From an uncultured Muribaculaceae bacterium (GTDB taxonomy: Bacteria > Bacteroidota > Bacteroidia > Bacteroidales > Muribaculaceae), in contig CAKUJD010000006.1 of NCBI GenBank assembly GCA_934661195.1, positions 1 through 64,000 on the forward strand: a stretch of 64,000 bases of DNA. Direction: 5' to 3'. Both the position numbers and the translations under genes were made by a program. Every line of letters begins with the position of its first letter. Within the stretch, counting starts at the first letter, position 1. Under the pieces are notes generated by a model. That model ran no database searches. It had not been told where the DNA came from and worked only from the letters and a program-made list of their open reading frames with translations. Positions 33,495 to 50,873 of this stretch are shown here, piece by piece.

Positions 33495-33547
33495 TATGTT
33501 TCGTTTTTATGCGAATTTATTGAGAAACCGCATTGTAGTAAAAGACA

Positions 33548-35409: not shown

Positions 35410-35410
35410 G

Positions 35411-36241: not shown

Positions 36242-37535
36242 TGTTGTTTACTTGTTTTGCGTCTTGATGTTCGTCGAGCGTGGTGAGTTGAATGAACGGA
36301 CATTCAGGCACTACACCATTCCAAACATTGAATCGGATAATGATGCGATGCACGGTGAAAAGCAGGTCGTGGTAAGGCTTTTGCAGGGCTTGTGCAATGG
36401 TGTAGAGTTCCCGCTTGTCCGAGCCGGAGTTGTTGGTCTGCGCTTTTCCCGGCACAGAGCCTACGAGATTTGAGTGGACACGGAGTGTAAAGCACATCAT
36501 ATTGACCGCCTCCTGAATGTCGGTACTCCAGTCACCACCCTCCTTAGCATCGTCAATCTTGTTAATGACCACATCGTGCTGTTCCTTGCCATCGGGTGTG
36601 ATGTAGAACGTGGAGAACCACGCCTTGCCGCTGTTCTCCGCCCCTGTGAGGAAGTCGAGAATACTCTGCTTCTCCTGCACGATGCGCTCCTGCTGCTTTC
36701 GTCGGTCGGTGATGCCCTCTGAGCGGAAGATACTCTCCCAATACTTCTGCGAAATCTCGATTTGGTATTTGATTGGAGCGGAGTTTTTCAACTTCGACTC
36801 CTTGGCGATTCCGATAAGTTGCTTGATGTTGTACCATTTTCCCTTGAACAGCGAGGCATAGTAGGGAATGGGATAGTAAGTGCTGTCAGGTGTAGGTACA
36901 CGGCTGACGATGGCGAATTTTCGGCAAGCGGTGCCGGTCGCAAGTCTACATTGAATGTCCTGCCACGGAGAGGCTGTGTCGAGTAGTTCAATTACCTCAA
37001 TGTCCTTGGCATCGGAGATGCATTTGCGCCAGTTGGCATAGAGGATTTTGAGTATTCTGCCAGATTTGTCGGCAGGGACGAAACGACAGTAGCAAGCCTC
37101 CTTACGCATCAGCCTCACGATTTTCTTGCCGTCACGGGATAGAATAATGACGCTGACAGCGAAACCGAAGTGTTTGAAGTCTTGGCACACGCCAAGAAAA
37201 TAAGATGAAAGGTCGTTGTCGAGGAGAAATTCATCAACTGCGGCTTTCGTTTGGGCGGTGGCAGCATCGCAGTTATACTGCAAGCCGCTGCCGTAGCACA
37301 CCTCGGCATTGAACATTTGGCAAGTGGACAGCGTTTCATCGTCCTCGATGAGCCGCAGAATGTTAAAGGGCATGTTGTTGTCACCACCCCACGGCATATA
37401 TGATAGTTTGTCGTCAATGGCGATTGGAAGAATGTCAACATCTTCCTTGAACACTGAAGCCGAATTGACTTGAAATGCTGCTCGTGCATTGCTGCTGGGC
37501 AGGTTTTCGACAGAAGAAAAATTAAGCGAGTCCAT
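36228..37535 (-). CDS. Phage portal protein
   Basis: The 435-aa product is the likely portal, the dodecameric ring through which DNA enters the head. Supporting features are the length, the position at the head of the connector genes, an N-terminal clip region with YMPWGGDNNMPFNILRLI near 46-63, CYGSGLQYN near 81-89, and C-terminal crown helices. A SILDFLTGAENSGKAWFSTFYITPDGKEQH stretch near 290-320 (key part TPDG) and a GxVPGKAQTNNSGSDKREL motif near 365-383 are typical of portal proteins of Bacteroidales phages. It is separated from the terminase by the cargo region rather than following it directly. Confidence 0.75.
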   Translation of the reverse strand: MDSLNFSSVENLPSSNARAAFQVNSASVFKEDVDILPIAIDDKLSYMPWGGDNNMPFNILRLIEDDETLSTCQMFNAEVCYGSGLQYNCDAATAQTKAAVDEFLLDNDLSSYFLGVCQDFKHFGFAVSVIILSRDGKKIVRLMRKEACYCRFVPADKSGRILKILYANWRKCISDAKDIEVIELLDTASPWQDIQCRLATGTACRKFAIVSRVPTPDSTYYPIPYYASLFKGKWYNIKQLIGIAKESKLKNSAPIKYQIEISQKYWESIFRSEGITDRRKQQERIVQEKQSILDFLTGAENSGKAWFSTFYITPDGKEQHDVVINKIDDAKEGGDWSTDIQEAVNMMCFTLRVHSNLVGSVPGKAQTNNSGSDKRELYTIAQALQKPYHDLLFTVHRIIIRFNVWNGVVPECPFIQLTTLDEHQDAKQVNNNANQ

Positions 37536-37600
37536 AACTTGTTGTGATTTGCAACAAAGTTATGAACCCGCAATGCGTTTTGAAAAGACATCAATGTTTA

Positions 37601-38182
37601 TCAGAAGTCATCGTATATCTGTTTGACAGATGTTGTAGAGAAACGTTCAACCATCAATTTCCTACATTTTGAAATAAATTTCCCTAATTTGTCTTTTCCC
37701 CAAGATTTTTCGTTATATGAGCTTCGAGATGAAATCCTAATTTTTATGATTCCCAACTCTTCAATTTTACAGAATTGCTCTTCTGATAGTGCAAATATAG
37801 CACTGTAATAGTCTGCTGTCCGAGAAGGCGTAAAATACGAAATGTTGCCTATACTATAAGAATAGGATGGTTGATTGATTTGACCTATATGGAGATTGTT
37901 TATTGGTAAAGACATAACCTCGCTATTGCTTAGCTTTATTAGTAGCATCGCATTATTGGGTATATAATTAAAAGAAGAAACTAATAAACACCAGTCTATA
38001 GATCCATATTGTTCATAGGCTTTCACTGTAAATTGGTATTCTACGCCATCAAGTTTTTCCTTTTTCCCTGAACTCATAAGTTGTCGTCTTCCATCATCTT
38101 CTATTCTATCAACTGTTATATCCTGAGCAAATAAATCAAAGGAAAGAATAGTAAGGAAAATGATTAAAATGTACCGTGTCAT
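37601..38182 (-). CDS. Secreted moron protein of unknown function
   Basis: The 193-aa product has a clear signal peptide (residues 1-19, cut after LFAQ) and should be exported from the lysogen. The mature part is beta-rich with no family I know. It contains a GVEYQFTVKAYEQYG strand pair, a PSYSYSIGNISYFTP stretch and a basic C-terminus (KFISKCRKLMVERF). The gene is much more AT-rich than the flanking phage genes and has its own perfect promoter (38202-38232). It interrupts the structural operon just upstream of the portal. These are the marks of a lysogenic-conversion gene acquired recently. It may alter the host envelope or exclude other phages, which is a guess. Confidence 0.7.
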   Translation of the reverse strand: MTRYILIIFLTILSFDLFAQDITVDRIEDDGRRQLMSSGKKEKLDGVEYQFTVKAYEQYGSIDWCLLVSSFNYIPNNAMLLIKLSNSEVMSLPINNLHIGQINQPSYSYSIGNISYFTPSRTADYYSAIFALSEEQFCKIEELGIIKIRISSRSSYNEKSWGKDKLGKFISKCRKLMVERFSTTSVKQIYDDF

Positions 38183-38201
38183 AAGAATTGTGTTTAATAG
38201 A

Positions 38202-38232
38202 CAAAAGTAATTAAAATATAGGATTTTACAAA
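38202..38232 (-). promoter_or_regulatory. Promoter of the secreted moron gene
   Basis: On the reverse strand TTTG (38229-38232) and TACTTTTG (38202-38209) are separated by 19 bases, an exact match to the Bacteroidota promoter. The gene starts 20 bases after the -7 box, so it can be expressed in the prophage state independently of late transcription. Confidence 0.85.
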
Positions 38233-38259
38233 AAGACTAAATCTGTTATAAAACATATT

Positions 38260-38493
38260 TTAGAGGAAAACTTCGCAATCGTTGATTGAAAATATGCAGC
38301 AGTCACGGATTTTGCGGATTTGCCCGCTGTTGAGAATTTTGATGTTGCGAGTGCCGGCATAGAAATCGTAACGGAGCGAGATGCAGTTGCGCAGGTGGAT
38401 GATCTCTCCATTTGCTTTCCATACGGATATATCCACAGGGCCCCCGCTGTTGAGCATCGTGCGCGCGGTGGTGATGTGTACAGACTTAGCCAT
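38260..38493 (-). CDS. Small phage protein, 77 aa
   Basis: The ORF begins with ATG 38493, overlapping the TAA of the preceding gene (TAATG), so it is translationally coupled to it. The product is beta-rich and basic, with two Cys near the C-terminus (RDCCIFSINDCEVF). It has no membrane segment. It is probably a structural accessory protein; function unknown. Confidence 0.6.
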   Translation of the reverse strand: MAKSVHITTARTMLNSGGPVDISVWKANGEIIHLRNCISLRYDFYAGTRNIKILNSGQIRKIRDCCIFSINDCEVFL

Positions 38494-39677
38494 TACTTGA
38501 AGATGAAGTTATAGGGTTCGGTGAATATGCCGTCGCCGATTGGATTCTGCATAGCGATGTGATTTCTGTTGTGTTGCCAAGTGAGCTTTACGGAGTTTGG
38601 TTTCTCTGGCAAGTCGGCTATTTCGCAAGTGGATTCTGTGATGAGTATCGGTTGCAGTGCGTCAAAGTCGGCATCGTATGGTTGGCTCTCGTATGGTATG
38701 CGGACATCTTCAGATGTGAATAGTTGCTCGGAGAGGAGGCACTCATCAGAGGTCAGGGCGGCAGACTGCAATTCAAACTCTTGCTTTGGTGTGCTGTCGT
38801 AGAATTGCGAAGTGTCGAGAAGAACAGCAATAGAGCGGTCTGTGGTTGTCTTTGCCGTAGCAATCGCAGGAATGAATATCTGGTCAGGCGCGTTGAAAGC
38901 ATTACGGAAATAGAAGCAATGTCCATCGGCAAGCGACCGGTCGATGAAGAACGTTGTCGCCCTGTCACCGCATCGGACGGTGAACGCAACAAGTTCCACT
39001 TCCTGTTTGGCGAGTTCAGAAACTCGTTTCTGCACATTATCGCAGAGAATGGCAATGGTCATCACATTGTCCTCCACCGCGTTTACGTTGGCATAGCCAC
39101 CGATGAAAGATGTATGCCACGGTGTGCCGTCTGCCTTGTAGTCGCAATAGATGTGGTAAGCCAAACGTTCGTTTTTTCGAGCGAACCACGATACGAAAAC
39201 AAACGAGTTAGGTGCGATGCGCCGTGAACTTGCTGGAGTGAGGAAATGGTTGAGAAACAACGGATCAATGTCGTAAAGGTCAATGTCTCGGTCGCAGTGT
39301 ACTGCGATGAATGTCGTTTCGGCTTCTTCATCATCATAAGCGGCACACAAGTTGAATTGCTCCACGGAGAAGCCTGTCGCTTTGATGGCTTGCTCGATGA
39401 GTGAGCGTAGGTCATAGAGATACACCTTGCCTTTGTAGGCATAGAACTTTCCAGAAAGAAGGGTTTCAGTTGGTGTGCCGAACTCCACTTCCACGGAACC
39501 GTGGTCGGTCAAAATTGTCACTTCTCCAATTTGGCAGGAGAGCAGCGTGCTGGGTATGGCGGAAATTTGGATCATAAAGCTAAGGTATTGCAAAAGATGC
39601 CACGAGGAAAAGACATCTTTCGGTTTGGGTAGCGTTGCAAGTTGCGGAGCGACCGCAACCTGCAACCAACTATCCAT
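38493..39677 (-). CDS. Large phage protein, beta-rich, possibly virion-associated
   Basis: The 394-aa product starts at ATG 39677, sharing one base with the TGA of the upstream small gene (TGATG coupling). The longer open frame to 40202 overlaps a non-coding region and is not used. The protein is almost entirely beta-strand (for example TEFGTPTETLLSGKFYAYKGKVYLYDLR near 55-80, cut to its GKFYAYKGKVYLYDL core). It has repeated domain-like blocks and a C-terminal VKLTWQHNRNHIAMQNPIGDG strand set. This suggests a decoration or fibre-type virion protein. No known domain is recognised. It lies between the cargo region and the moron/portal genes. Confidence 0.65.
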   Translation of the reverse strand: MDSWLQVAVAPQLATLPKPKDVFSSWHLLQYLSFMIQISAIPSTLLSCQIGEVTILTDHGSVEVEFGTPTETLLSGKFYAYKGKVYLYDLRSLIEQAIKATGFSVEQFNLCAAYDDEEAETTFIAVHCDRDIDLYDIDPLFLNHFLTPASSRRIAPNSFVFVSWFARKNERLAYHIYCDYKADGTPWHTSFIGGYANVNAVEDNVMTIAILCDNVQKRVSELAKQEVELVAFTVRCGDRATTFFIDRSLADGHCFYFRNAFNAPDQIFIPAIATAKTTTDRSIAVLLDTSQFYDSTPKQEFELQSAALTSDECLLSEQLFTSEDVRIPYESQPYDADFDALQPILITESTCEIADLPEKPNSVKLTWQHNRNHIAMQNPIGDGIFTEPYNFIFK

Positions 39678-39958
39678 CAATCGTGAATCTCGGCTTTGAT
39701 TCTGTCGTAGATGTTCTGGCTGATGACCGCTCCATAGCGATGTTTGAGCAAGTGCATATAGCGTATTGCGCTTTGGGCAGTCTTGCAGCCACAACCCACA
39801 TTGTCCTTGGGGCGCACGCCTTGGAAATAAACATACCATCTGTCGTACTTGCGTTGAGCCACGATGAGCAGCGGAGTAACTGTAGCTTTCGGAATTACGA
39901 TTTCCTGAACGTTTTGCTTTGCGACCTTTGCGGCTTTCTTTGAAACTTTCTTTACCAT
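39677..39958 (-). CDS. Small basic phage protein, 93 aa
   Basis: The product has a Lys/Val-rich N-terminus (MVKKVSKKAAKVAKQN) and a compact domain with RKYDRWYVYFQGVRP and a CGCKTAQSAIRYMHLLKHR motif (residues 55-73). The Cys pair and basic helix suggest nucleic-acid or metal binding. Small genes of this type occur in Bacteroidales prophages upstream of structural genes. Its stop overlaps the start of the next gene. Function unknown. Confidence 0.65.
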   Translation of the reverse strand: MVKKVSKKAAKVAKQNVQEIVIPKATVTPLLIVAQRKYDRWYVYFQGVRPKDNVGCGCKTAQSAIRYMHLLKHRYGAVISQNIYDRIKAEIHD

Positions 39959-40091
39959 GATTCAATGAGTTTTGATGATTCAACATTGACGCTGATGCGC
40001 CGTTTATTTTACGTGCAATCAAGTGGACGAGAAAGCGGAGATAATGCAAGGATGACTGACGCATTTTTCGCCAAGCATTAGCATAAAAATT

Positions 40092-40146
40092 GGAGGAACA
40101 CAGCGTGCAAACTTGTCCTTGCAGCCGAAGCGTCGTCCTAACTTTG
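40092..40146 (+). promoter_or_regulatory. Repeated forward promoter-like segment, copy 1
   Basis: The block GGAGGAACAC, GTGCAAAC, TGTCCTTG, then TAACTTTG (40139-40146) and GTAAAA is shared with 57221-57285. TAACTTTG is a consensus -7 box on the forward strand. The nearest TTG (40119-40121) is 17 bases upstream, slightly short for a -33 box. It faces two tiny forward ORFs and opposes the reverse-strand phage operon. Confidence 0.5.
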
Positions 40147-40156
40147 CAAAGTAAAA

Positions 40157-40246
40157 ATGAATGGTGCGGAAAGGCGAAAAACAATGTTGCAGTCAAAACC
40201 ATCGTGGCAAATAGAAAGGCAGCCTAAAAAGGCAGTAAAACGTTAA
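40157..40246 (+). CDS. Tiny basic ORF, 29 aa
   Basis: ATG 40157 lies 10 bases after the -7 box and the frame ends with TAA at 40246. The product is short, Lys/Arg/Gln-rich and has no domain. It is listed because it is the first frame behind the repeated promoter-like segment and is followed directly by another small ORF; it could also be a leader peptide or chance. Confidence 0.3.
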   Translation: MNGAERRKTMLQSKPSWQIERQPKKAVKR

Positions 40247-40248
40247 TA

Positions 40249-40389
40249 ATGACATCACAGAAAGCGTTGGTTTGCTGCTGTGGCGCGAAAGTACGGCTTT
40301 ATGGTATGTGCGATGTGTGCGCCAGTCAAAGTGGGTTTAGCCAAGAGTGTGTAAGGTGGTGGCACTTGCTATCGATTGGGCGGTCGTAA
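40249..40389 (+). CDS. Tiny Cys-rich ORF, 46 aa, possible zinc knuckle
   Basis: The frame begins with ATG 40249, two bases after the preceding tiny ORF stops. The product starts with a CCCGAKVRLYGMCDVC pattern (two Cys pairs about 12 residues apart), as in a small zinc ribbon, followed by a Trp-rich tail. The arrangement is encouraging, but the size makes chance possible. I see nothing more in 40390-40538. Confidence 0.35.
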   Translation: MTSQKALVCCCGAKVRLYGMCDVCASQSGFSQECVRWWHLLSIGRS

Positions 40390-40538
40390 GCTAAGAGAAC
40401 ATCTCATCAAAGCCGAGCCTCGATTGTGGGTGATGCAGGTGCTGTTGTTTCGCAGTTTGTTAGGTGTTCCGCATCAATAGGTTTGTGAACAAAAAATAGT
40501 CACCCGTTTGGCTGACCATCTTTCGGAATGGGATTGGC

Positions 40539-40736
40539 TTAGTAAATGATTGTGTAGTCCGCATTGCCGACCATTTCGGCTGCCTTTTCCGAGGCTTCTC
40601 TTTCGTTGTGGGCTTCAACAGTCACGATTTCGCTGTCGCCGTCGAAAGTCACGACTTCCACTTGATATTCATTCATTTCATTGCTGTTTGAGTAAGCGTA
40701 AGAGTTCATTGTGGCGAATAAAGAGATATGTGTCAT
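40539..40736 (-). CDS. Small acidic phage protein, 45-65 aa
   Basis: The C-terminal 45 residues (from Met at 40676: NEYQVEVVTFDGDSEIV, VEAHNEREASEKAAEMV) have strong coding character and resemble small single-domain proteins common in Bacteroidales mobile elements. ATG 40736 and ATG 40697 are earlier in-frame starts that add a serine/asparagine-rich lead, and I give the longest. The role is unknown. Confidence 0.55.
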   Translation of the reverse strand: MTHISLFATMNSYAYSNSNEMNEYQVEVVTFDGDSEIVTVEAHNEREASEKAAEMVGNADYTIIY

Positions 40737-40940
40737 TTTTGTAAGAATTTGATTGTTAATAACTGTGCGCCGGGGCGCCTTTGATTTACATTGCAAAAAG
40801 GAGCGAATGCAATCAACGGCTCCGCCGTGACAGACAAAGACAAGGGGCAGCCCAAACCGGAAGGCTTGAATACTCGTTTTTCTGGCACAGAAAAAAGGAA
40901 GATTTTTGAGACTGACTTGCCTCGCCCTTGACAGGCTGGA

Positions 40941-40963
40941 TACATCGCTAACTTAGCGATGTA
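40941..40963. promoter_or_regulatory. Perfect 10-bp inverted repeat, operator- or hairpin-like
   Basis: TACATCGCTA and TAGCGATGTA surround a 3-base centre. There is no T-run. It lies in the 475-base gap before the cargo region (40797-41271), which otherwise holds only a doubtful small membrane ORF. A repressor-binding site is a reasonable guess. Confidence 0.4.
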
Positions 40964-41174
40964 AACTCAATGCAGCCTCGCGCCTGCACAAAGTTATCCC
41001 AATCAAACTCTTGATACACGCAAATGACACCCACACCACCTCGCCACCAATAACCGCTACTCCACCCAAACAGCACCGCCACAGAATATCAAAAAGAAGC
41101 CGCAACAAAACTGCACAGACCACAATAACGTAGATGCCCACAACAATAAGTAGCCAAACATTGCTTTTGCCCAA
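40953..41174 (-). CDS. Doubtful small membrane protein, 73 aa
   Basis: The frame encodes one or two hydrophobic helices (VWLLIVVGIYVIVVCAVLLRLLF and LGGVAVIGGEVVWVSFA, each shorter than the usual pair) and a basic end. Hydrophobic composition could be genuine, but no homologue or regulatory site supports it, and the inverted repeat at 40941-40963 overlaps its end. Confidence 0.3.
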   Translation of the reverse strand: MGKSNVWLLIVVGIYVIVVCAVLLRLLFDILWRCCLGGVAVIGGEVVWVSFACIKSLIGITLCRREAALSLHR

Positions 41175-41259
41175 TCATATATAAATTTACATCGAATCGG
41201 AGCTCAAAAAAGACTGATTGATTTTTGGAATTTAGTTATCTGAATTAATGCCTTTTTTG

Positions 41260-41267
41260 TAATTTTG
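41260..41267 (+). promoter_or_regulatory. -7 box just before the sce7726-like gene
   Basis: TAATTTTG matches TAnnTTTG and ends four bases before the GTG start, which would give a leaderless message. No good -33 TTTG is present at 19-21 bases. Confidence 0.4.
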
Positions 41268-41271
41268 CAAC

Positions 41272-41889
41272 GTGAAACTATATGACGTGACATCTGCAGA
41301 CTATATAAAGTGTAAATTCATTGATTACTTATCTGAACGACCAATTTTGTGCATAGGGAATGAGATTATGTATGGAATAAATAAAATGGTTGCGGATTTA
41401 GTGTTTTTAATGGAGGGGAAAACTTATGCAGTTGAAATAAAGGCACAAAATGACAATCTCATAAAAATTCAAGATCAGTTAAGTAACTATCGTTTAGTTT
41501 TTGATTATGTAATAGTTGTAACTACTGAAAACCATATAAAACAGCTAATGAGTATCGTTGATGACTCTATTGCTGTCTTTGTCATAAAAAAAGATAACTC
41601 TATAACTTTGATTCAAAGAGGTAGAATTCAAAAGTTAGTAGATAAACAATCAATTTTAGCCACACTAAGTGCACAGTTCATTTCTTTTAAATTCGGTTGT
41701 AAGTTGTCTGAAGTGGACAATTTTAGGTGCGTGACAATTCGAAGGAGCAAGGATTTTATAAAAAAACTTCTCTTTCAGTTTTTTGAAGGACGACTATTAA
41801 AACAATATAATGTTTTTTTGAATGAGAAAGGGGCACAGACACATATTGAAGACTTGGGGGCTCTATCTCATTACAACTATATTGAATAA
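41272..41889 (+). CDS. sce7726-family PD-(D/E)XK nuclease-like protein (Gop-like candidate)
   Basis: The 205-aa product shows the restriction-endonuclease-like core ADLVFLMEGKTYAVEIKAQNDNL at residues 41-63: an Asp, then the ExK of VEIKA, with the following helix DQLSNYRLVFDYVIVV. This is the sce7726 pattern, related to nucleases. It should be a nucleic-acid-cutting or -binding effector in the cytoplasm. It starts with GTG. The gene is AT-rich, on the opposite strand to the phage operon, and converges with the Beta-family gene with a 13-base 3' overlap. sce7726 genes are often neighbours of Beta-family genes, so a toxic-effector role controlled by Beta and/or the ImmA-type protein is inferred. 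Confidence 0.7.
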   Translation: MKLYDVTSADYIKCKFIDYLSERPILCIGNEIMYGINKMVADLVFLMEGKTYAVEIKAQNDNLIKIQDQLSNYRLVFDYVIVVTTENHIKQLMSIVDDSIAVFVIKKDNSITLIQRGRIQKLVDKQSILATLSAQFISFKFGCKLSEVDNFRCVTIRRSKDFIKKLLFQFFEGRLLKQYNVFLNEKGAQTHIEDLGALSHYNYIE

Positions 41890-42968
41890 ATCCTTTTACA
41901 TTGTTGCTCTAAGTGAATACACATTCTTACTGATATCCAAAACGACGGTGATGAAGAAGGTGCGGCTCCTTCAGCGCAATTAATAATTTGAGTTATTCCC
42001 CAATTATCTTTTAGCTTCGGGAACTCTTTTGTTCGTATTATTTGCCTTGCGACTTCAGAATATGTTGTGGCATATTTAGAAACACCTTTTGGACGCCGTT
42101 GCCGAATATAATAGATGCGATCCTCCAAAGGTATATCTATACGAGGAATCCAACCACGAGCCATAATAATCTTGTCATTTCGAATCGGGTTTACAGATGC
42201 ATAGTCTGAATATATTACAGAATGATGTTTCTTTTTTATTTCTTCGAAAATTTTAACCTCACTAAGAAAAAATTCGTCAGAAATATCATCTCCAATATCA
42301 CTGATATTTTTAGGGAACGATGTGCCACAAACTATATAGGTTTTAATGGAATTAGAACTTAATTCATTTAGGTTGTCTATCCTTGAAGACACTTTTTTTG
42401 AAACCTCACTCCTTTGCGGCTGTATAACATAGTCGCAATCAATTAAAACTATAATCTTATTGAGATACTGATTAAGTAGTGACAAATCAGAATAACAATT
42501 TTCATCAATAATAGAACTTCGATATATAAAATTCCCAAAATTCATTATTAGCGAATCTGCTTGTTTTTTCAGATTCTCTGTGAAATTGACATCAGTTCCA
42601 TTTATAATGAGACAAGGCGTTATTTTATGGAACACGTTTTCTTCCTTTAATTGACGCAAGAAACCAATCCAATGTTCATATCCATTATTAGGATTGTATA
42701 GTTGAATTATTTGTTCATTTAATAAGGCTTCATCTGATGTTAAATCAATAGCTATGTCTTTGTCCTTAAAGATGTCCTTTATTCGAGCCAATCGTTTGTC
42801 AAAAGGATAAAGCTCTGCTTCTTTCTTTCTACTTGCTGAAACGCTTTTCCGCCCTCTTGTTATTTCTATTATTGGTTCTATATGGTTGAGAACCATATCT
42901 GAGGATTTTTCTAGAGCTCTTATCTCTGCTTCTCCAAGTTTAATAATTGGCTGATATAACTTAACCAT
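41877..42968 (-). CDS. Beta-family protein (phage P4 beta-like)
   Basis: The 363-aa product has the layout of the Beta_protein family, named after the beta protein of satellite phage P4. It has an N-terminal YQPIIKLGEAEIRAL and HIEPIIEITRGRK (residues 4-40), a TIM-barrel-like middle (IAIDLTSDEALL; VLIDCDYVIQP) and a C-terminal GWIPRIDIPLEDRIYYIRQRRPKG near 268-290. It ends in WISVRMCIHLEQQC near 344. In P4 beta takes part in the gop-beta-cII module that has been described as a killing/anti-phage unit. Here it is the last gene of an operon with the ImmA/IrrE gene two bases upstream. The molecular activity is unknown. Confidence 0.82.
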   Translation of the reverse strand: MVKLYQPIIKLGEAEIRALEKSSDMVLNHIEPIIEITRGRKSVSASRKKEAELYPFDKRLARIKDIFKDKDIAIDLTSDEALLNEQIIQLYNPNNGYEHWIGFLRQLKEENVFHKITPCLIINGTDVNFTENLKKQADSLIMNFGNFIYRSSIIDENCYSDLSLLNQYLNKIIVLIDCDYVIQPQRSEVSKKVSSRIDNLNELSSNSIKTYIVCGTSFPKNISDIGDDISDEFFLSEVKIFEEIKKKHHSVIYSDYASVNPIRNDKIIMARGWIPRIDIPLEDRIYYIRQRRPKGVSKYATTYSEVARQIIRTKEFPKLKDNWGITQIINCAEGAAPSSSPSFWISVRMCIHLEQQCKRIYSI

Positions 42969-42970
42969 TG

Positions 42971-43513
42971 TTATGATTTTAATTTGTAACCTAATGCAAC
43001 AACTCTGTATTTTATCGCAGCTACCGAAACATTAAATATTGTAGATAGCTTTTCAATGCTTTTTACACCTGATTCAACAGCCGCCTTAACTCTATCTTCA
43101 GGCATTAGCAGGTTTGCAGCAAATTCATTAGCACTATACTCAATTGAAGTGCTGTCGTTGTTCCTAAAGAATGTAGTATCTTCAAAATCTACATTTTTCT
43201 CTTTGTGCATATAGTAGTGCCCTAGTTCATGAGCGATTGTAAATCGTTGACGTTTTGGATTGTGCATACTATTTACTCCGATTACCCATTGTCCATCAAC
43301 TATTTTTAAATAGCCAGAAATGGATGAATCCATTTGATCATATACAATATTTATATTTTGCCATTTAGCTATTTGTTCAATGTCTACATTACCCCTGCTG
43401 TCAATCCACTTTTTGTTAGTCGCAGTAGATATAATATCATTAACATCTCTTATTAAAATAGGTTCAGAGTAACTGTTATTTGTCACTACAGGTCTTCTTC
43501 CAAACGTTCCCAT
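42971..43513 (-). CDS. ImmA/IrrE-family metallopeptidase
   Basis: The 180-aa product carries the zinc peptidase motif HELGH at residues 95-99 within FTIAHELGHYYMHKE, and the third ligand Glu in YSANEFAANLLMP near 123-135, the hallmark of ImmA/IrrE. These enzymes cleave repressors or antitoxins after a stress signal. There is no fused HTH domain at the N-terminus, although the C-terminal VKSIEKLSTIFNVSVAAIKYRV resembles a helix-turn-helix-like tail. Seven bases separate it from the membrane protein gene and two from the Beta gene. It may be the sensor or switch of this module. Confidence 0.88.
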   Translation of the reverse strand: MGTFGRRPVVTNNSYSEPILIRDVNDIISTATNKKWIDSRGNVDIEQIAKWQNINIVYDQMDSSISGYLKIVDGQWVIGVNSMHNPKRQRFTIAHELGHYYMHKEKNVDFEDTTFFRNNDSTSIEYSANEFAANLLMPEDRVKAAVESGVKSIEKLSTIFNVSVAAIKYRVVALGYKLKS

Positions 43514-43520
43514 AACTAAT

Positions 43521-44027
43521 TTATTCTATTTCTGTTTCACGAGCATTTTCAAGTTCATTTATCCGTGCGCTAAGAGCTTCTAATTCATTAGAATGGTCAT
43601 CTTTACTTACATAGTGAGAGTCAAATTCGCCAGATAATGAGCTGACAATCTCCTGCCTGAATATTTTAGAATCGTTAATGAACTCCTTTACAACTTTCCT
43701 TGTTTCCTTGGCATTATTGTCTCTTATTATTATATAAGATGCTATTGAAAATATAACTAACACAATGCCAACAAAAGTCAACAACACATTATAGAAACTA
43801 ATAACATGGTTCGTGTATTCACTTGGAGTTAATAGCAAGCCACAATCTTCAAGCCTCTTCAAATTTTTTAAGCTCTCTAAAGAAAGATTGCACTTGTCCA
43901 CATCAGAGTTGAGTATATAAATACATTTAAAATCATATATGCCGCAAAACATACCAATGAAGACAAGTAACAAAACTATAATAATAGCCCCTAATGTACC
44001 GCAGATTAAATATTCTTTTAATTTCAT
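43521..44027 (-). CDS. Two-helix membrane protein with cytoplasmic coiled coil
   Basis: The 168-aa product has transmembrane helices at about residues 9-31 and 77-101 and a soluble loop between them with Cys and charged residues. It ends in a charged, coiled-coil-like tail (about 110-168, rich in Glu, Asn, Lys). No enzyme motif is seen. It begins one base after the stop of the cytosine methyltransferase gene and precedes the ImmA/IrrE gene. Membrane proteins in such positions often execute abortive infection or anchor the complex, which is an inference. Confidence 0.7.
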   Translation of the reverse strand: MKLKEYLICGTLGAIIIVLLLVFIGMFCGIYDFKCIYILNSDVDKCNLSLESLKNLKRLEDCGLLLTPSEYTNHVISFYNVLLTFVGIVLVIFSIASYIIIRDNNAKETRKVVKEFINDSKIFRQEIVSSLSGEFDSHYVSKDDHSNELEALSARINELENARETEIE

Positions 44028-44028
44028 A

Positions 44029-45291
44029 TTAGCGTAAAATTAAGTCACCATTAGAATATCTCACAGCCAATCCAATTGCTTTGCCCAAAAGAGGGGGAAC
44101 AGCATTGCCTATTTGAACAAGTTGTTTGTTCTTTGGCCCTTCAAAAATAAAGTCGTCAGGGAATGACTGCAAACGTGCCATTTCTCGTGCAGTCAATACA
44201 CGAGGTAATTTGGGGTGTATGTTAACTCCACCATGATTTTCCTTAATCGTACATGAAGCTTCGTCCCAAGGGCATTTCTTCCACGCATCGGAATAACCTT
44301 TATAAAGGCTCTGCCCCTCTGGTAACTCCAACATACGCTGTGCCATATCTGGGCGGTGCTTGGTTGGCACATGGTTGAAAGCCTTGTTTTCTGGCATTTC
44401 CATCAAATCGGCAATAGCTGCGCCTGTAGTTATGTATTGCGTTGGTTGTAGGATTGGCTTGGGGTGAAAGTTTTTCAAACCTTTGCGATTACCTATAAAA
44501 ATAACACGTTCTCGTTTCTGTGGTGTATAATAATCAGCTGCGCAAAGTGTCATAACATTCATTTCATAGCCAATTGCGTGGAAGTCGTCAATTATTTTCT
44601 TTTCAACAAGCCCGTTCAGCATACTGCGCAATCCCTTTACATTCTCACAAATAACAAAATCAGGCTGTAAATGCTTGACTATTTCAATAAGTTCAAGATA
44701 AAGAGAGTTGCGCGGGTCATCAACAATTCTGTTGCCAGCCATACTGAAGCCCTGACAGGGGAATCCGCCAGCAACAATGTCAAGATGTCTACCATTAAGC
44801 TGCTTCTTAACGGTTTCATAGAATTGCTCTTTGATTTCTGGAGATTTTATATCTCCATTTACAAATGGGTGGTCAAAGTTGCGGCTGTATGTCATACAAG
44901 CTTCCTTGAACCAATCAAGGCCACAAATTCCTTCAAGGCCAGACATTTCAAGACCTTTAGACAAGCCTCCAGCACCACAAAACAAATCAACAAAAGTCAT
45001 TTTGGATTTGCCTGGACTCTGCCACCATTCAGAGATGTCCGCCAAATTTGGTGCTTTGGGCGTATATATTTGTGTAGATGTATCAGGCTCTCCAAACAAA
45101 TTCAATTGAGATGCTTCAACATCCTTTGCCTTACATTGCGCTTGATAATTTTCCAAAGCTTGTTTACTGATAGAATATCTTGTGCCGACTTTGGAACTCT
45201 CAATGTCTCCACTTGCGACTATGCGACGCACGGCTTTTTGGGTGGTTTTAAGAATTTTAGCTACCTCTTGAATACTATATACTGTGCTCAT
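44029..45291 (-). CDS. DNA cytosine-5 methyltransferase with N-terminal HTH
   Basis: The 420-aa product has two parts. Residues 1-55 are an excisionase/MerR-like helix-turn-helix (YSIQEVAKILKTTQKAVRRI). Residues 95-420 are a C5-cytosine methyltransferase: motif I TFVDLFCGAGGLSKG near 98, motif IV GGFPCQGFS near 176-184 with the catalytic Cys, motif VI CENVKG near 217, motif VIII QKRERVIFIG near 260 and motif X QIGNAVPP near 395. It protects host DNA against the partner endonuclease. The HTH could let it regulate its own operon. Its ATG overlaps the endonuclease stop (ATGA), so the two are coupled. Confidence 0.93.
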   Translation of the reverse strand: MSTVYSIQEVAKILKTTQKAVRRIVASGDIESSKVGTRYSISKQALENYQAQCKAKDVEASQLNLFGEPDTSTQIYTPKAPNLADISEWWQSPGKSKMTFVDLFCGAGGLSKGLEMSGLEGICGLDWFKEACMTYSRNFDHPFVNGDIKSPEIKEQFYETVKKQLNGRHLDIVAGGFPCQGFSMAGNRIVDDPRNSLYLELIEIVKHLQPDFVICENVKGLRSMLNGLVEKKIIDDFHAIGYEMNVMTLCAADYYTPQKRERVIFIGNRKGLKNFHPKPILQPTQYITTGAAIADLMEMPENKAFNHVPTKHRPDMAQRMLELPEGQSLYKGYSDAWKKCPWDEASCTIKENHGGVNIHPKLPRVLTAREMARLQSFPDDFIFEGPKNKQLVQIGNAVPPLLGKAIGLAVRYSNGDLILR

Positions 45292-45992
45292 TTGTTGTCT
45301 TTAAAAAGTTCTGGATAGAGTTTTCTCATAACAAAGTCTACGCTTTGTAGTATTGCTTCTTCGCTTAACTTACGAACAGTTTGTATTCGGTATTCAACAG
45401 GATCATATTGGTAACAACCCTTACACCCTAACTCTTCAGTATATTGCTCATCACCTTCATAAAAAGAGTAGGGGTTGCCTGAAATGTTTTTTGCATCCCA
45501 ACGCCTGTCTGTCATTTTGCAAAGTTTGCAAATTTGTCGTTTTATGTCATTAGCGGCTTTACATAGTGGTTGGAAATCTTCAATTTTTTGCGTTGCTATA
45601 TCTGACACTCGCATATCCTCTTTTCTTCCGTCTTTGTGGTCAACTTCTATGATTGTATTTTCAGAACTGCCATTGACACCAAGCATAACACACTTGCGTT
45701 TGCTAATTGCGTCTTTAATGTCTTGTCTTATGTTTTGGCTGAAATGAGCGTCTTCGTTGTATCCCACCAATCTAATAGCAGTAATGGCATTTCCTTTGCC
45801 ATCTCTTTTTACTTCAACTTTATACTTGCGCTGAAGCCTTGACGATTTTCGTCCCCAACTCCAGCCATTACCAAGTACAAGGTCTTTATATTTATCTACA
45901 AATTCAGACGTATAGACCCAACGGCTTTCGCCAGTTTCCTCATTCGGTTTGGCTAATTCCAAGAACAAATCTATTAAATTATTCTTTGCCAT
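45288..45992 (-). CDS. Type II restriction endonuclease, HNH class (ScaI-like)
   Basis: The 234-aa product has an HNH-like catalytic core IEVDHKDGRKEDMRV near residues 115-130, followed by DFQPLCKAANDIKRQ near 140, which supplies the Asn, and a CKLC zinc pair near 155-160. The tail NPYSFYEGDEQYTEELGCKGCYQYDP (key parts: a GDE-YT-ELGC-GC set, 175-200) closely follows enzymes of the ScaI group. An N-terminal helical region probably recognises DNA. The recognition sequence is not deducible. It lies between the two methyltransferase genes, 9 bases after the first. Confidence 0.87.
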   Translation of the reverse strand: MAKNNLIDLFLELAKPNEETGESRWVYTSEFVDKYKDLVLGNGWSWGRKSSRLQRKYKVEVKRDGKGNAITAIRLVGYNEDAHFSQNIRQDIKDAISKRKCVMLGVNGSSENTIIEVDHKDGRKEDMRVSDIATQKIEDFQPLCKAANDIKRQICKLCKMTDRRWDAKNISGNPYSFYEGDEQYTEELGCKGCYQYDPVEYRIQTVRKLSEEAILQSVDFVMRKLYPELFKDNK

Positions 45993-46001
45993 ATAGTTAT
46001 A

Positions 46002-46790
46002 TTATTTTGAAGTTTTCTTAAATACAAAAATATATTCGTGCTTAAAAAGGAAATTATCACTTTTTAAAGCTCTGTACCTCCAAAGAGACTCTATGCCTAT
46101 TTTCGCTCTGTTGCCAACCATATCTTTAACAACTATTCCTTTTAATTTGCAATTAAAGTTACGCTTAATTGCATACATTAAATAGAATCCCAATGGAACG
46201 ACCTCGCTATCTCTATAGATATCGCCAATCACCAGACAAAAATATTTGCCGACTTTTAGGTATTGCCAAACGTTATTCACGGCCTCTATAAATTTTGTTA
46301 TGAAGTCATTAATATTGGTGATGTTTGACAAGTCTTCTTTCTTGTCTGTAAACTGCACAATGTCCAAATATGGTGGGTGTGACATTATTAGGTCTACTGT
46401 CCGTTTTCCTATTTCTTTTAAGTCTGTTTCTATCAGATTTTTGACTTTTTTCTTTGCAAGTATATCACAATTATGGATATAATATTTTATAGGAGAAGTG
46501 GAATCCATTTTAGATTCAACGTGATTGATTATATCATCATTTATATCAAATCCTATATAATTTCTGCCAAGTGTTTCACATTCAAATAAGGTTGTGCCAC
46601 TTCCCATAAACATATCAAGAATCGTTGCATTCTCGTCTGCATATCGGCGAATCATTTGATTGGGAATTTGAGGCACAAAGTTGCCATGGTAAACATTTTC
46701 ATGTTTACCGCCCTTTGCTCTCGGTCCGATAATCCACAGACTATCCGTGTTGATGTCAAGTTCCTTCCATTTGGACTTGTCAAATTTCAT
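46002..46790 (-). CDS. DNA methyltransferase, N4-cytosine / N6-adenine type
   Basis: The 262-aa product has the AdoMet motif DMFMGSGTTLFE near residues 58-69 and the catalytic motif IMSHPPYLDI near 132-141, i.e. an N4/N6 amino-methyltransferase. The His in place of the usual Asp/Ser before PPY is a variant. The order is motif I before IV. A C-terminal segment (GNRAKIGIESLWRYRAL near 220-236) may help recognition. It is the first gene of the R-M operon. Together with the C5 enzyme it suggests a site that needs two kinds of methylation, for example one type per strand. Confidence 0.88.
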   Translation of the reverse strand: MKFDKSKWKELDINTDSLWIIGPRAKGGKHENVYHGNFVPQIPNQMIRRYADENATILDMFMGSGTTLFECETLGRNYIGFDINDDIINHVESKMDSTSPIKYYIHNCDILAKKKVKNLIETDLKEIGKRTVDLIMSHPPYLDIVQFTDKKEDLSNITNINDFITKFIEAVNNVWQYLKVGKYFCLVIGDIYRDSEVVPLGFYLMYAIKRNFNCKLKGIVVKDMVGNRAKIGIESLWRYRALKSDNFLFKHEYIFVFKKTSK

Positions 46791-46794
46791 ATAA

Positions 46795-46941
46795 AATTAA
46801 AAACTCCGATGTAGCATCTGAAGGCGACCAAACCCACACAACTACAAAGGAGTTTTCTTCTAAAAGTTACCGGCACTATTGCCGTTATATGTTCAATTCT
46901 TTGGTCATTTTCAGAATTTAATGCTTCAAGAAGCAAAGTTA
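46795..46941 (-). promoter_or_regulatory. Promoter and structured leader of the R-M / ImmA / Beta operon
   Basis: On the reverse strand TAACTTTG (46934-46941) is a consensus -7 box, though the -33 partner is weak. The leader of about 140 bases holds a small CGGCA/TGCCG hairpin near 46870-46890. A larger one next to the gene pairs AAAACTCC with GGAGTTTT, with TGTAG/CTACA inside (about 46800-46858). The second ends in a T-rich stretch a few bases before the start codon and could attenuate transcription or mask translation. The rest of 46790-47121 is AT-rich and empty. Confidence 0.5.
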
Positions 46942-47121
46942 CGAATTTTTACGATAGCGTGGTTTACTTCTCCATTAAAAAGTTATAAACACTATCATTC
47001 ATCACTTTCATCACTTTCATTTCTCGCCGCAAAGATAGTATATTACCTGTGCAATACTAATGCACACACATATATAATTATGTTAATAATTTGGTTGTCA
47101 AAATAATTATTGCTTGACAAT

Positions 47122-47152
47122 TTTGCCTAATGTCAAATTATTGCTAACTTTG
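47122..47152 (+). promoter_or_regulatory. Promoter of the AbiF-type RNA/gene unit
   Basis: TTTG (47122-47125) and TAACTTTG (47145-47152) are 19 bases apart, a perfect consensus. Transcription should start near 47158-47160, directly before the hairpin RNA. Confidence 0.88.
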
Positions 47153-47157
47153 CGCTC

Positions 47158-47217
47158 AATATGACCTCCCACGCTTCTCGTTAGATCAGCGCACCCGGGG
47201 AGGTCTTCGAGTTTTAT
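47158..47217 (+). ncRNA. Small hairpin RNA preceding the Abi_2 gene
   Basis: Between the predicted start of transcription and the ATG lies a compact structure: GACCTCCC (47163-47170) pairs perfectly with GGGAGGTC (47198-47205) around a 27-base loop, and a short U-rich tail leads to the gene. HEPN-containing AbiD/AbiF genes have been reported to be preceded by a conserved small structured RNA that acts as an RNA antitoxin. Position, size and the closing stem fit that here. Exact ends are not known. Confidence 0.65.
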
Positions 47218-48168
47218 ATGGACTATACTAAACGACCACTTACATTGCAACAGCAAGTTGCAAAATTGAAGAGCCGTGGATTGCAGATTGATGATGAGCA
47301 ACTTGCGGCACGTTACTTGTCAAATATCAGTTATTACCGTCTAAGGGCATACACATACCCATTTCAAGACAATGTGAATTCCGAAGCAGACCATAAGTTT
47401 ATTAGAAAAGATATTCATTTTTCGGATATAATCGACTTGTATTGTTTTGATCGACGGTTACGCTCATTGATGTTCAATGCCATTGAGAAAATTGAGGTTG
47501 CCGTGAGGGCTAAAATTGTGCAAGCGTATTGTGAATCAACTGGAAGTAGCCATTGGTTCACCGATAGAAGCCTGTATAAGGACAAGGAAATCTTAGACAG
47601 AAACAGAAACCGCATATCGGCTTTTGATGCCTTGATGAAGGATATTGAAGGTGAAATTAAAAGAAGCAATGAAGATTTCATCAAACATTATTACAGCAAA
47701 TATGATAATCCTCCGATTCCTCCCGCTTGGATGACGCTTGAAGTGCTGTCGCTTGGCACGTTGAGTAAAATGTACCAATTACTGAAGAAATCTCCACAGA
47801 AAAAAGCAATAGCCAAAGCATTTGGACTGAATGATGACCGAGTGTTTGCCAATTGGCTTCATGCGATAGCTGTTTGGCGTAATTGCTGCGCACACCACAG
47901 TCGTGTATGGAATAGGCGATGCATCATAAATATTACCATGCCCAAGAATGCAGACAATCCTTTCCTTGACAGACAAACTTTGTCCTCAATCCACCCTAAT
48001 AAAGTTTTCACGGTGCTTTGCTGCATCAAATATATCAGCAACATCATCAGTCCTGACAGCGATATAAAACGAAAAATTCTATCCATAATAGGGGATGGAG
48101 GGAATTTGCTTAATCTCCAAGAAATGGGGTTCCCACGTAATTGGAAACTTCTTGACGTATGGAAATAA
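47218..48168 (+). CDS. Abi_2 family abortive-infection protein (AbiD/AbiF, HEPN)
   Basis: The 316-aa product starts with KRPLTLQQQVAKLKSRGL and the SYYRLRAYTYPF block (residues 37-49) that define Abi_2. The HEPN ribonuclease motif R-x4-H is RNCCAH at 221-226, followed by SRVWNR. A conserved PPAWMTLEVLSLGTLS lies near 168-183. Abi_2 proteins cut RNA and stop phage growth by halting the cell. The gene has its own promoter and leader RNA, faces against the phage operon, and its stop codon lies three bases from the terminase stop. It is therefore a self-contained cargo cassette placed exactly behind terL. Confidence 0.93.
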   Translation: MDYTKRPLTLQQQVAKLKSRGLQIDDEQLAARYLSNISYYRLRAYTYPFQDNVNSEADHKFIRKDIHFSDIIDLYCFDRRLRSLMFNAIEKIEVAVRAKIVQAYCESTGSSHWFTDRSLYKDKEILDRNRNRISAFDALMKDIEGEIKRSNEDFIKHYYSKYDNPPIPPAWMTLEVLSLGTLSKMYQLLKKSPQKKAIAKAFGLNDDRVFANWLHAIAVWRNCCAHHSRVWNRRCIINITMPKNADNPFLDRQTLSSIHPNKVFTVLCCIKYISNIISPDSDIKRKILSIIGDGGNLLNLQEMGFPRNWKLLDVWK

Positions 48169-48171
48169 CGA

Positions 48172-49794
48172 TTACAATACTCCTGAAATATTTATAGTTA
48201 GGGTTTCTCTAAACGGGAACTTTTCGCAGCCGATATAGAGTGTGTCGAACGCATCGGTGCCGTCGGTGCGATGCTGTAATAAATCCTCTTCGCTTTCGGC
48301 GAGCTTTTCACCGCCTTTGTCCTTGCGGAAACCGTTGCGGCCACGGCTCACGCCGGCTGACTGAATGGCAAGGATTAAGTCATCGTTGTTTTGGCGGTTG
48401 AAGAACGGCATCAGACGTTGCTTGCCGGCGAATCCCTGGTTGATGAGCAGATACTTTTCATCGTGGCGCATAGGGTTGCCGATATATACCGCCTCCACAT
48501 GCCAGCCGTGGCGTTCAAACTCGTGAATTACCACCCAGCGAAAATCCTGTTCGTTGACGGCATAGTTCGAGCCAAGAGCGGTGGCATCGTAGTAAAAGAC
48601 CACCGTCTTGCAGCGATGCTCCGCATAGTAGGAGCAGAAGTCATCAACGAGTGCCGGTATCTTGCGCTCGAACTTCACATAGAATGATTTGATGACGTTC
48701 AGCCGTCTGCCATCCGGCTGACCGGCAACAATCCAGTTGATGTTGGCGTTATAGTCCATACCAATGCAGATGGGTGCGTCAGGGTTCACGTCCTTGTCGG
48801 CACGAGCGTTGAGCGTAGAGAAATCGTAGTCATAGCCGAGCGTGTCGAGGTATTGGTTGTCGTTGGCATCATACTTGTGTCCCTCACGCATCGAGGAATA
48901 GAAGCCGTCTTTGGCAATGCCTATCCGCTGACAAAGGATAGAGGTTTGGAACGTCAAGGGCGTGAGGTCGCGCTTCATCTGCTTGATGTAGTTCTCGCCA
49001 AGCAACTGCAGATTCTCGATGCTGCTGTATTCCTTGTAATAGACAGCAACCGACCGCATCTGATTTAAGTTGCGGTCAAGACGGCGCAGATAATTTTTGA
49101 GATATGGCGGAACAGCCTCGCCTTTGGCGGAAAGCATGCGGACATGACTTTTGATGCGCCATATCTCATATACCGTACCCTCAATGGTGCGTATAAGGTC
49201 AGCGTCCATCTTGTCGCGGTAGTGCAGAAACCACGAGCCTTTCTGCGTCTGTGGCATATCCGACAGCACCATCATCGAGTGATTGAACGAGTGCTTGCCG
49301 AAGTGGCTCTTGATGCCGCCATTAGCCGGCAGCGTCTCGTCTTTCAGTTTCTGGTAGTCGATGAACTTCGCCTCGTCAACGAGTAGCCAAGAAAGCGTCA
49401 GCGAGTTTGACGAGCCCGGACGGTCTTGCGAGATGATGACCGCACACGAGCCGTTGTAGAACAATATGACGTGTTCATAGTCGTTAGGCTCGATAATCGG
49501 GCGTTTGAACGACTTTGGCGGACGGCGACCGACCACATAGTGCAGTCCGTTAAGATATCCCCAACGCTTCCACGCTGCGAGCAGACCGGGAATCGTGTTT
49601 GTCAATCCGTGCTTGAAGGTAGGCACAACGATGCCACCGGTAGATCCGGGCATACGCTGCATATTGCGCAAGGCAAACGGAGCCGCTATGCTGTCCGTTT
49701 TCCCTGTACGTCGTCCGGCGACAATGACCGTGGTGTTCGCACCAATCAACTGCGTAAGCCTTTGCGGATTATTGAAGTAAATCTTCTTTTCCAT
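48172..49794 (-). CDS. Phage terminase large subunit
   Basis: The 540-aa product packages DNA into the head. The ATPase has Walker A VAGRRTGKTDS at residues 25-35 and Walker B SWLLVDEAKF near 131-140, and a coupling segment follows. The nuclease domain has the acidic residues of an RNase H fold in GMDYNANIN near 345, FYYDATALGS near 402 and HRTDGTDAFDTL near 510. Length and domain order are normal. Upstream are two small-subunit-like genes. The portal gene, normally next, is displaced by about 10 kb of cargo. Confidence 0.94.
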   Translation of the reverse strand: MEKKIYFNNPQRLTQLIGANTTVIVAGRRTGKTDSIAAPFALRNMQRMPGSTGGIVVPTFKHGLTNTIPGLLAAWKRWGYLNGLHYVVGRRPPKSFKRPIIEPNDYEHVILFYNGSCAVIISQDRPGSSNSLTLSWLLVDEAKFIDYQKLKDETLPANGGIKSHFGKHSFNHSMMVLSDMPQTQKGSWFLHYRDKMDADLIRTIEGTVYEIWRIKSHVRMLSAKGEAVPPYLKNYLRRLDRNLNQMRSVAVYYKEYSSIENLQLLGENYIKQMKRDLTPLTFQTSILCQRIGIAKDGFYSSMREGHKYDANDNQYLDTLGYDYDFSTLNARADKDVNPDAPICIGMDYNANINWIVAGQPDGRRLNVIKSFYVKFERKIPALVDDFCSYYAEHRCKTVVFYYDATALGSNYAVNEQDFRWVVIHEFERHGWHVEAVYIGNPMRHDEKYLLINQGFAGKQRLMPFFNRQNNDDLILAIQSAGVSRGRNGFRKDKGGEKLAESEEDLLQHRTDGTDAFDTLYIGCEKFPFRETLTINISGVL

Positions 49795-49827
49795 AATAAT
49801 CAGAAGCCTGTTGCGTTAAATAATAAT

Positions 49828-50010
49828 ATGAAAGTATTCATCATATCAGGTGTAGTAACGTTCTTGACAGCAATCTTCACATATCGCAGAATGGAAGCAG
49901 TTGTCGAGAAGAAGAAAGCTGGTTGGTGGATTGGCTACAAGTGCATAACACTCGTTTACCTTGTACTATTCGTCTTGCTTGTCATTATTATTGATACTTT
50001 GTGGAAATAA
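49828..50010 (+). CDS. Doubtful small membrane protein on the forward strand, 60 aa
   Basis: From ATG 49828 the frame predicts two hydrophobic helices (IISGVVTFLTAIF and CITLVYLVLFVLLVIII) joined by a Lys/Trp-rich loop, a topology common for tiny phage membrane proteins. It starts in the gap between the terminase genes but overlaps the 3' end of the 49966-50601 gene by 45 bases on the opposite strand. No promoter of quality is seen. Confidence 0.35.
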   Translation: MKVFIISGVVTFLTAIFTYRRMEAVVEKKKAGWWIGYKCITLVYLVLFVLLVIIIDTLWK

Positions 50011-50601: not shown

Positions 50602-50873
50602 TCGTCATCTTCCATGTCAAGCAGATTGCGGTGAGCATTCTCAATGGCAAGCGGCGAGCCGACCTGTGCAAGCATCATTTCCTGTGAGTGGAGTTTCACC
50701 TTAGATGCAGCCTTGCCACGTCGGTACGCCTTGCTCACATCGCTTGTGCGGTCGGCAATGTCGTCGCGCAGCACATCGGCAGGAATATCAAGAATCACCG
50801 CCATGTCGGATATTTTGAGGTAGATGCTCGCAAACTTCTCAATCTGCTGTAATGCGTTGGTTGAATAATTCAT
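50598..50873 (-). CDS. Small DNA-binding phage protein, terminase-associated
   Basis: The 91-aa product contains a helix-turn-helix-like element (ISDMAVILDIPADVLRDDI, residues 21-39) and a conserved tail AYRRGKAASKVKLHSQEMMLAQVGSPLAIENAHRNLL (key part GSPLAIENA). Such short HTH proteins sit just before terminase genes in Bacteroidales prophages and may be a terminase subunit or its regulator. Its start overlaps the PLD-like gene by 35 bases and its end overlaps the next gene by four. Confidence 0.65.
   Translation of the reverse strand: MNYSTNALQQIEKFASIYLKISDMAVILDIPADVLRDDIADRTSDVSKAYRRGKAASKVKLHSQEMMLAQVGSPLAIENAHRNLLDMEDDE

Follow-up and report, generated by a model that had tools for sequence, protein, structure and literature searches.

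A prophage-borne 2TM-M78-Beta-cII cassette of an uncultured Muribaculaceae bacterium: a candidate M78-containing sister of the P4 gop-beta-cII anti-phage module

Introduction

Do four small genes that lie together in an uncultured Muribaculaceae bacterium form a phage-defence module, and how are they related to the gop-beta-cII unit of phage P4? The genes lie in a stretch of 64 000 nucleotides (contig CAKUJD010000006.1), the whole of which is referred to here as the window. The passages available from PMC9122126 report that P4 gop-beta-cII guards against lambda and P1 and that Gop is toxic without beta; those from PMC11291487 merely list gop beta cll. A second relevant system, PD-lambda-2, is described in the accessible part of PMC9519451 as an abortive defence system consisting of a HigB-like protein, an Xre-M78 peptidase and a relative of P4 beta, in which the Xre-peptidase is toxic alone and is rescued by the first gene, while the Beta protein is required for defence and dispensable for neutralisation. 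The mechanism of both systems is left unsettled by these published passages, and the cassette described here ties the two together. On balance, we lean towards the view that the locus is a prophage-borne, toxin-antitoxin-like abortive-infection module directed against phages, an M78-containing sister of P4 gop-beta-cII with a protease-switched membrane toxin. This upholds in part the original prediction, made from the DNA letters: the locus is a conflict module of the gop-beta-cII kind to which a peptidase is added, while several details are revised below.

Gene layout and protein families

Open reading frames, strands and families were re-derived, and the four genes were found where they had been predicted.

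41260..41267, + strand: TAATTTTG, candidate Bacteroidota-type -7-like element from a pattern scan, 4 bases 5' of the cII start codon; could be a chance match
41272..41889, + strand: cII/sce7726-family protein, 205 aa, GTG start, predicted PD-(D/E)XK fold
41877..41889: 13 bp shared by the 3' ends of the convergent Beta and cII genes
41877..42968, - strand: Beta-family protein, 363 aa, TIM barrel by model
42971..43513, - strand: stand-alone M78 (ImmA/IrrE) zinc metallopeptidase, 180 aa, HELGH motif
43521..44027, - strand: 2TM membrane protein, 168 aa, proposed toxin/effector in Gop's place
44029..46790, - strand: restriction-modification operon, a neighbour outside the module (families by profile)
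44029-45291, - strand: C5-methyltransferase of this operon
45288-45992, - strand: ICEA-family gene of this operon
46002-46790, - strand: N4/N6 methyltransferase of this operon
47218..48168, + strand: Abi_2/AbiD gene, carried in the same insertion as a separate piece of cargo (PF07751, E 1.8e-62; PADLOC AbiD, 5.7e-76)

The gaps of 1, 7 and 2 bases between successive genes were reproduced, with the C5-methyltransferase frame ending at 44029, and the sce7726 gene is convergent with its neighbours as predicted. The call of TAATTTTG depends on what we take to be the Bacteroidota -7-like consensus. Positions 44142-44173 (- strand) match the pattern of a possible internal promoter. Pfam, NCBIfam and PADLOC name three of the cassette proteins (Beta_protein, Peptidase_M78 and sce7726/cll); no family in these collections scores above its cut-off for the 168-aa protein.

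The Beta protein matches PF14350 with an E value of 2.2e-51 (175.8 bits against a cut-off of 27) and, among the PADLOC models, scores higher with beta (116.7 bits, 2.3e-34) than with PD-Lambda-2_C (79.8 bits, 5.1e-23). The structure model is a TIM barrel with a predicted pocket around Arg150, Asp177 and Asp255. A Foldseek search with this model gave no match at E<=0.001, with a Rossmann-type dehydrogenase ranked first, so the fold class rests on VIA and strand order; the Beta profile has no significant match among PDB sequences.

The peptidase matches PF06114 (E 1.2e-25) and PADLOC capP (1.9e-34). His95, Glu96, His99 and Glu125 are invariant in an alignment of 29 sequences, which bears out the HExxH motif of the original prediction and provides the zinc site with its downstream glutamate, so that catalysis is predicted. 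Among solved structures, the M78 profile finds its closest sequence match in the CapP protein of CBASS (7t5t, E 2.7e-17); capP is the one CBASS family among the PADLOC matches listed for nine window proteins (the best 25 for the methyltransferases), with no cyclase or CBASS effector family. The 180 residues show no HTH match, and PADLOC PD-Lambda-2_B aligns only over its positions 292-373 of 402.

The sce7726 protein scores 79.7 bits with NF033832, above the curated cut-off of 70. Glu31, Asp42, Glu55-x-Lys57 and Gln69 are invariant among 39 aligned sequences, confirming the conservation of the predicted ExK motif. Both features of a PD-(D/E)XK nuclease, the fold (by model) and the D...ExK residues, are present in this putative nuclease. 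The cassette thus offers concrete residues for mutation in three proteins.

Comparison with P4 gop-beta-cII

In the P4 record (NC_001609), gop (247-648, +) and beta (651-1718, +) are followed by cII (1746-2540, -). The original prediction held that order and strands differ from P4; the mutual order and strands of Beta and cII are in fact identical, with Beta followed by a convergent cII/sce7726 gene in both. Since the P4 record labels cII as a 'sce7726 family protein' and the PADLOC cll model matches both proteins (4.9e-17 for the window protein and 3.2e-113 for P4 cII), sce7726 is, at the sequence level, the counterpart of P4 cII. The same two lines of evidence rule out Gop, with which the prediction had paired it; its proposed refutation, a lack of kinship between sce7726 and P4 Gop, therefore addresses the wrong pair. 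The three genes of Pasteurella phage Pmp11 also follow the P4-type order. As in P4, the window cassette is mobile-element cargo and a small, polar-tailed membrane protein leads its operon. Unlike P4, which has no M78 gene between gop and beta, the window carries the stand-alone peptidase at 42971-43513, which is the genuine addition.

The membrane protein, a coiled coil in the wording of the prediction, which had described it as an addition, sits instead in Gop's place at the head of the operon. It has two hydrophobic segments (19-residue hydropathy peaks of 2.98 from residue 12 and 2.66 from residue 83) and a 67-residue C-terminal tail, and four homologues at E<=0.001 in the protein collection. 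In P4 Gop (133 aa) the two peaks reach 2.01 and 1.56 and a polar tail comes after them; the loop between the peaks is very short, about 4 residues compared with about 52 in the window protein. Neither hmmsearch nor hhalign (probability 0.6%) detected a sequence relationship of the 2TM family to Gop; an hmmsearch E value of 0.0025 for the Pasteurella phage protein came from a two-sequence file and carries little meaning. The PADLOC gop model matches neither the window protein nor five 2TM relatives, a silence that counts for little because the model equally misses the Pmp11 protein in the gop place. The window protein has no match to any PADLOC model or to HigB. Given that no kinship was detected and that the builds differ, the putative effector role of the 2TM protein rests on its position and rough build.

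Conservation across genomes

We assembled 47 loci (38 from genome contigs and nine from viral contigs) by Beta alignment only, such that the M78, cII and membrane genes played no part in the choice. The search patterns came from an alignment dominated by window-like Betas, and the sample therefore describes that branch; it contains near-copies (e.g. L006/L007 and L044/L045). A full-length Beta was retained in 39 loci, the other eight being cut by contig ends (five) or broken (three). In all 39, the gene immediately upstream of Beta encodes an M78 protein with HExxH. The cII gene was found in 36, convergent in 33 and co-directional in three, and the 3' ends of Beta and cII overlap by 4-33 bp in 32 of the 33 convergent loci; the profile search found no cII in L010, L041 and L042. 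By script, the product of the gene preceding M78 has one or more hydrophobic segments in 37 of the 39 loci and two in 34. Inspection of the remaining two by eye showed two segments in L016 and, in L033, a 145-aa two-segment frame followed by an overlapping 97-aa frame. L018 is cut by a contig end and L010 starts 62 bases from one.

The predicted co-occurrence of the four genes in other genomes is thus borne out (M78 39/39, cII 36/39), and the 2TM-M78-Beta cassette with convergent cII is conserved beyond chance. It occurs in seven phyla (Bacteroidota, Bacillota, Melainabacteria, Elusimicrobiota, Omnitrophota, Planctomycetota and Pseudomonadota), although many loci are MAG contigs and the phyla represented by a single MAG (Bacillota, Melainabacteria, Omnitrophota and Planctomycetota) could reflect binning errors. 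Clustering of unrelated cargo genes by accident, for which the incidental look of the adjoining restriction-modification operon and Abi_2 gene might speak, is ruled out by this co-occurrence in seven phyla and has a vanishingly small probability. This widespread cassette unites a membrane protein, positioned where P4 has Gop, and the kind of peptidase seen in PD-lambda-2. A search of the literature, its reach ending short of subscription papers and preprints, found no description of the cassette. Within that search nothing contradicts the claim of a system not described for this phylum as to the cassette itself, but two relatives are published, and complete cassettes are present in 12 named Bacteroidota loci (L003-L009, L012, L014-L016 and L021). 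Searching viral_contigs with the window Beta alone gave eight pattern matches, none of which was confirmed. The L030 cassette has no near match among complete E. coli genomes, and its Beta detects two distant relatives among plasmids.

Draws of genomes made independently of the cassette contained PF14350 in 7/395, 8/369 and 4/393 genomes; these tallies are lower bounds, with at least one Beta missed (G289, found via sce7726). Three of the 19 were preselected centres (G001, G003 and G004) and were left out. Among the remaining 16, of which G397 and G848 carry broken or partial Betas, M78 lies directly upstream of Beta in ten and sce7726 adjoins Beta in 13; in G106 and G110 sce7726 was absent from the ORF calls and was recovered by NF033832. 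The 2TM-M78 type accounts for two of the 16 (G445 and G561) and an HTH-M78 type for six, so the window type makes up a single branch within a larger family and is rare in a random genome.

In a phylogeny of 56 Betas, the 2TM-M78 label was given to 41 rows, and 40 of these, the window's among them, share a branch (96/94); the labels of L016 and L033 were assigned by us beforehand. Two P4-type Betas and L239/L240 join this branch in a 44-row group (100/98) with an unsettled inner order, while the HTH-M78 (PD-lambda-2-like) and Xre+M78 Betas form a separate group with three Betas that lack M78. This grouping, which is to be read with the long branches of L239, L240 and L230 and the midpoint rooting in mind, places P4 beta nearer to the window Beta than the PD-lambda-2 type.

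These counts also bear on whether cII is an active nuclease and itself the effector, degrading DNA, with the 2TM protein as sensor or anchor. Its invariant residues and PD-(D/E)XK fold are what such a role would require. Against it, cII lies on its own strand, the profile misses it in the three loci named above, NF033832 has no match in three of 12 Beta genomes (G445, G559 and G639), and the product reported as toxic in P4, in the passages available, is Gop. It is thus the most dispensable part, and we consider an effector role for it improbable.

Prophage setting

The locus is prophage-borne and belongs to the variable cargo that this phage of gut Bacteroidota carries close to its terminase. 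The cassette has a portal gene (36228-37535) on one side and a terminase gene (48172-49794) on the other. We retained 80 of the 333 relatives that the terminase has in IMG/VR; 30 loci (including several contigs fetched twice) contain both genes, with a terminase-portal gap of 1.4 to 8.1 kb in 25 and a reversed order in five. In six relatives, two of which include the portal, PADLOC names nine of ten ORFs downstream of the terminase, hand-picked by size or similarity, as methyltransferases, a type II endonuclease, a type IIG enzyme and AbiD. The GC content is 0.33 to 0.40 at 40001-48000 compared with 0.46 to 0.53 at 30001-40000 and 48001-54000. With a variable cargo site and low GC, the restriction-modification operon, the Abi_2 gene and the cassette look like separate cargo in one spot. 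The original prediction saw the cassette as welded to the restriction-modification operon: the close gap is real in the window, but the linkage was not seen in 65 other Beta loci, where flanks of up to about 6 kb contain no relative of the window's operon proteins at E<=1e-5, and on this ground the operon is rejected as part of the system. Speaking against this rejection, L229, which carries a Beta of another type, has a gene for a 1116-aa N6-MTase/Eco57I-type protein directly upstream of it. The DNA at 40300-48200 gave two short matches to phage records, one in a methyltransferase gene and one unannotated.

Some mobile elements are regulated by M78 peptidases (ImmA with ImmR), and the cassette, prophage-borne here and found at nine viral-contig loci, might accordingly serve stability/addiction or regulation and not act on phages directly. 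This is unlikely: the cassette has no repressor gene, the same site carries restriction-modification or AbiD cargo in relatives, and gop-beta-cII and PD-lambda-2 are both reported as anti-phage in the passages available. The last two points together support the anti-phage reading.

Proposed mechanism and related systems

By analogy, the cassette may be viewed as a variant bridging gop-beta-cII and PD-lambda-2, from which its anti-phage function is inferred. The module reading draws on the M78 gene and its HExxH (each 39/39 loci), cII (36/39) and a membrane-type gene (37/39). Given the observed gene content, architecture, catalytic-residue conservation, predicted fold classes and cargo position, the following mechanism is proposed. 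The 2TM, M78 and Beta genes would form one operon, with the convergent cII transcribed separately. The two-segment membrane protein would be the effector, damaging the membrane once freed. Keeping the module silent and reporting infection would fall to Beta, probably assisted by the nuclease-fold cII in a DNA-linked role. The M78 protease would be the switch, its trigger perhaps being single-stranded DNA, which activates another M78 peptidase, PprI/IrrE, according to the available part of PMC10904395. Once active, it would free the effector by cutting either Beta or the membrane protein's tail; the infected cell would halt and the resident prophage would exclude rival phages. The toxic protein, the cleaved protein, the trigger and the anti-phage activity are all proposals, the cleaved protein being the least supported step. 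Counting against this reading are the dissimilarity of the 2TM protein and Gop, a cassette that has no repressor-type gene as substrate, the three of 39 loci where cII went undetected and the Foldseek outcome for Beta.

PD-lambda-2 resembles the window in its toxin-antitoxin-like organization, with M78 directly upstream of Beta and a Beta-family protein as third component (for window Beta, PD-Lambda-2_C is a weaker match than the P4 beta model). It differs in its HigB-like first gene, in place of the 2TM protein, and in its Xre-M78 fusion, in place of a 180-aa M78 protein without HTH. In the HTH-M78 loci L228, L235 and L236 sce7726 is convergent with Beta, but the genomes of two PD-lambda-2-like loci (L237 and L238) yielded none. 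These likenesses raise the alternative that M78 itself is the toxin, with the 2TM protein and Beta as its membrane anchor, neutraliser or activator, in a PD-lambda-2 variant where a 2TM gene has replaced the HigB-like gene and the HTH. The toxicity of overexpressed Xre-M78, its rescue by the preceding gene and the need for Beta in defence, all from the accessible passages, are in its favour, as are the small gene before M78 and the Beta after it in the window and the M78-Beta adjacency in ten of the 16 drawn genomes. The window Beta nevertheless prefers the P4 beta model and groups apart from the HTH-M78 Betas, and neither an HTH in M78 nor a HigB match in the upstream gene was detected, so we judge this alternative rather unlikely and retain the membrane protein as the preferred toxin. 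Since in PD-lambda-2 toxicity comes from the peptidase and is neutralised without Beta, although defence requires Beta, according to the same passages, this system also speaks against Beta as a plain antitoxin.

A further relative emerged from the draw of Bacteroidota genomes, in which NF033832 matches in 26 of 395 (25 over the cut-off). In all seven Beta genomes of this draw sce7726 adjoins Beta; in at least 12 others it adjoins a protein of 311 to 317 aa, which belongs to the NCBIfam sce7725 family in the two examined. In one comparison, hhalign aligned 300 columns of the sce7725-type profile and Beta (94.7%, E 6e-8). Like the window, the two sce7725-sce7726 operons examined (L272 and L273) pair sce7726 with a Beta-aligning protein; unlike the window, they run on one strand throughout and have a RES-domain protein as the third gene, with no M78 family match among the three proteins tested. 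The passages available from PMC13414232 and PMC12457778 place sce7726, beta or sce7725 proteins among strain-specific genes and give no function.

This distribution suggests a Beta-cII core with exchangeable toxins. It is possible, though on present evidence doubtful, that Beta/sce7725, a TIM barrel whose polar pocket is conserved, and the PD-(D/E)XK protein cII/sce7726 constitute a shared two-protein sensing and control core to which unrelated toxins are fitted: the 2TM protein with M78, Gop, HigB with Xre-M78, or RES. If so, gop-beta-cII, PD-lambda-2 and sce7725-sce7726-RES would belong to one defence superfamily, and Beta would be an enzyme or ligand sensor and not a plain antitoxin.

Prophage setting

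The region between the terminase and portal genes (36228–49794) is a cargo spot of variable content. The phage family concerned is common among gut Bacteroidota, and relatives carry RM or AbiD genes as cargo at this position. Two features of this region are as follows.

41260–41267: candidate −7-like element (pattern match), four bases 5′ of the cII start codon
44029–46790 (−): restriction-modification (RM) operon encoding an ICEA-family protein and two methyltransferases of different kinds; C5-methyltransferase with an HTH

Two ORFs of the one prophage, 47218–48168 and 55392–56516, display similar Abi_2-like stretches close to the N-terminus, recognized by family scan in the former and only by eye in the latter.

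Start of cII

The cII gene of the window (41272–41889; sce7726 family) was entered in the protein collection (P0008) as a 167-residue protein starting at the internal Met39. The GTG start at 41272 is favored, since Lys13 and Glu31 are conserved. The candidate −7-like element, four bases 5′ of this codon, would make the cII mRNA nearly leaderless.

Related loci

The M78 peptidase–Beta pair is present twice, in tandem, at a single locus (L240), and a search for sce7726 in that genome found none. The gene preceding the cassette at three other loci (L029, L033 and L040) is, from inspection by eye, presumably guaA-like and is a possible integration spot.

A protein with an F-L-D-V-L-G-F motif, which we take to be reminiscent of nucleotide cyclases, adjoins or lies close to Beta and cII in L241, L242 and L274; the L242 and L274 copies have no NCBIfam match. 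In L274, from a genome overlooked by the survey for the Beta family (PF14350), three genes adjoin one another: one with a SocA/Panacea domain, sce7726 and one for a distant Beta.

Operons of the order sce7726–sce7725–RES, in which the sce7725 profile aligns with Beta, occur in L272 and L273. A 518-residue ORF with an HELMH motif adjoins the L272 operon.
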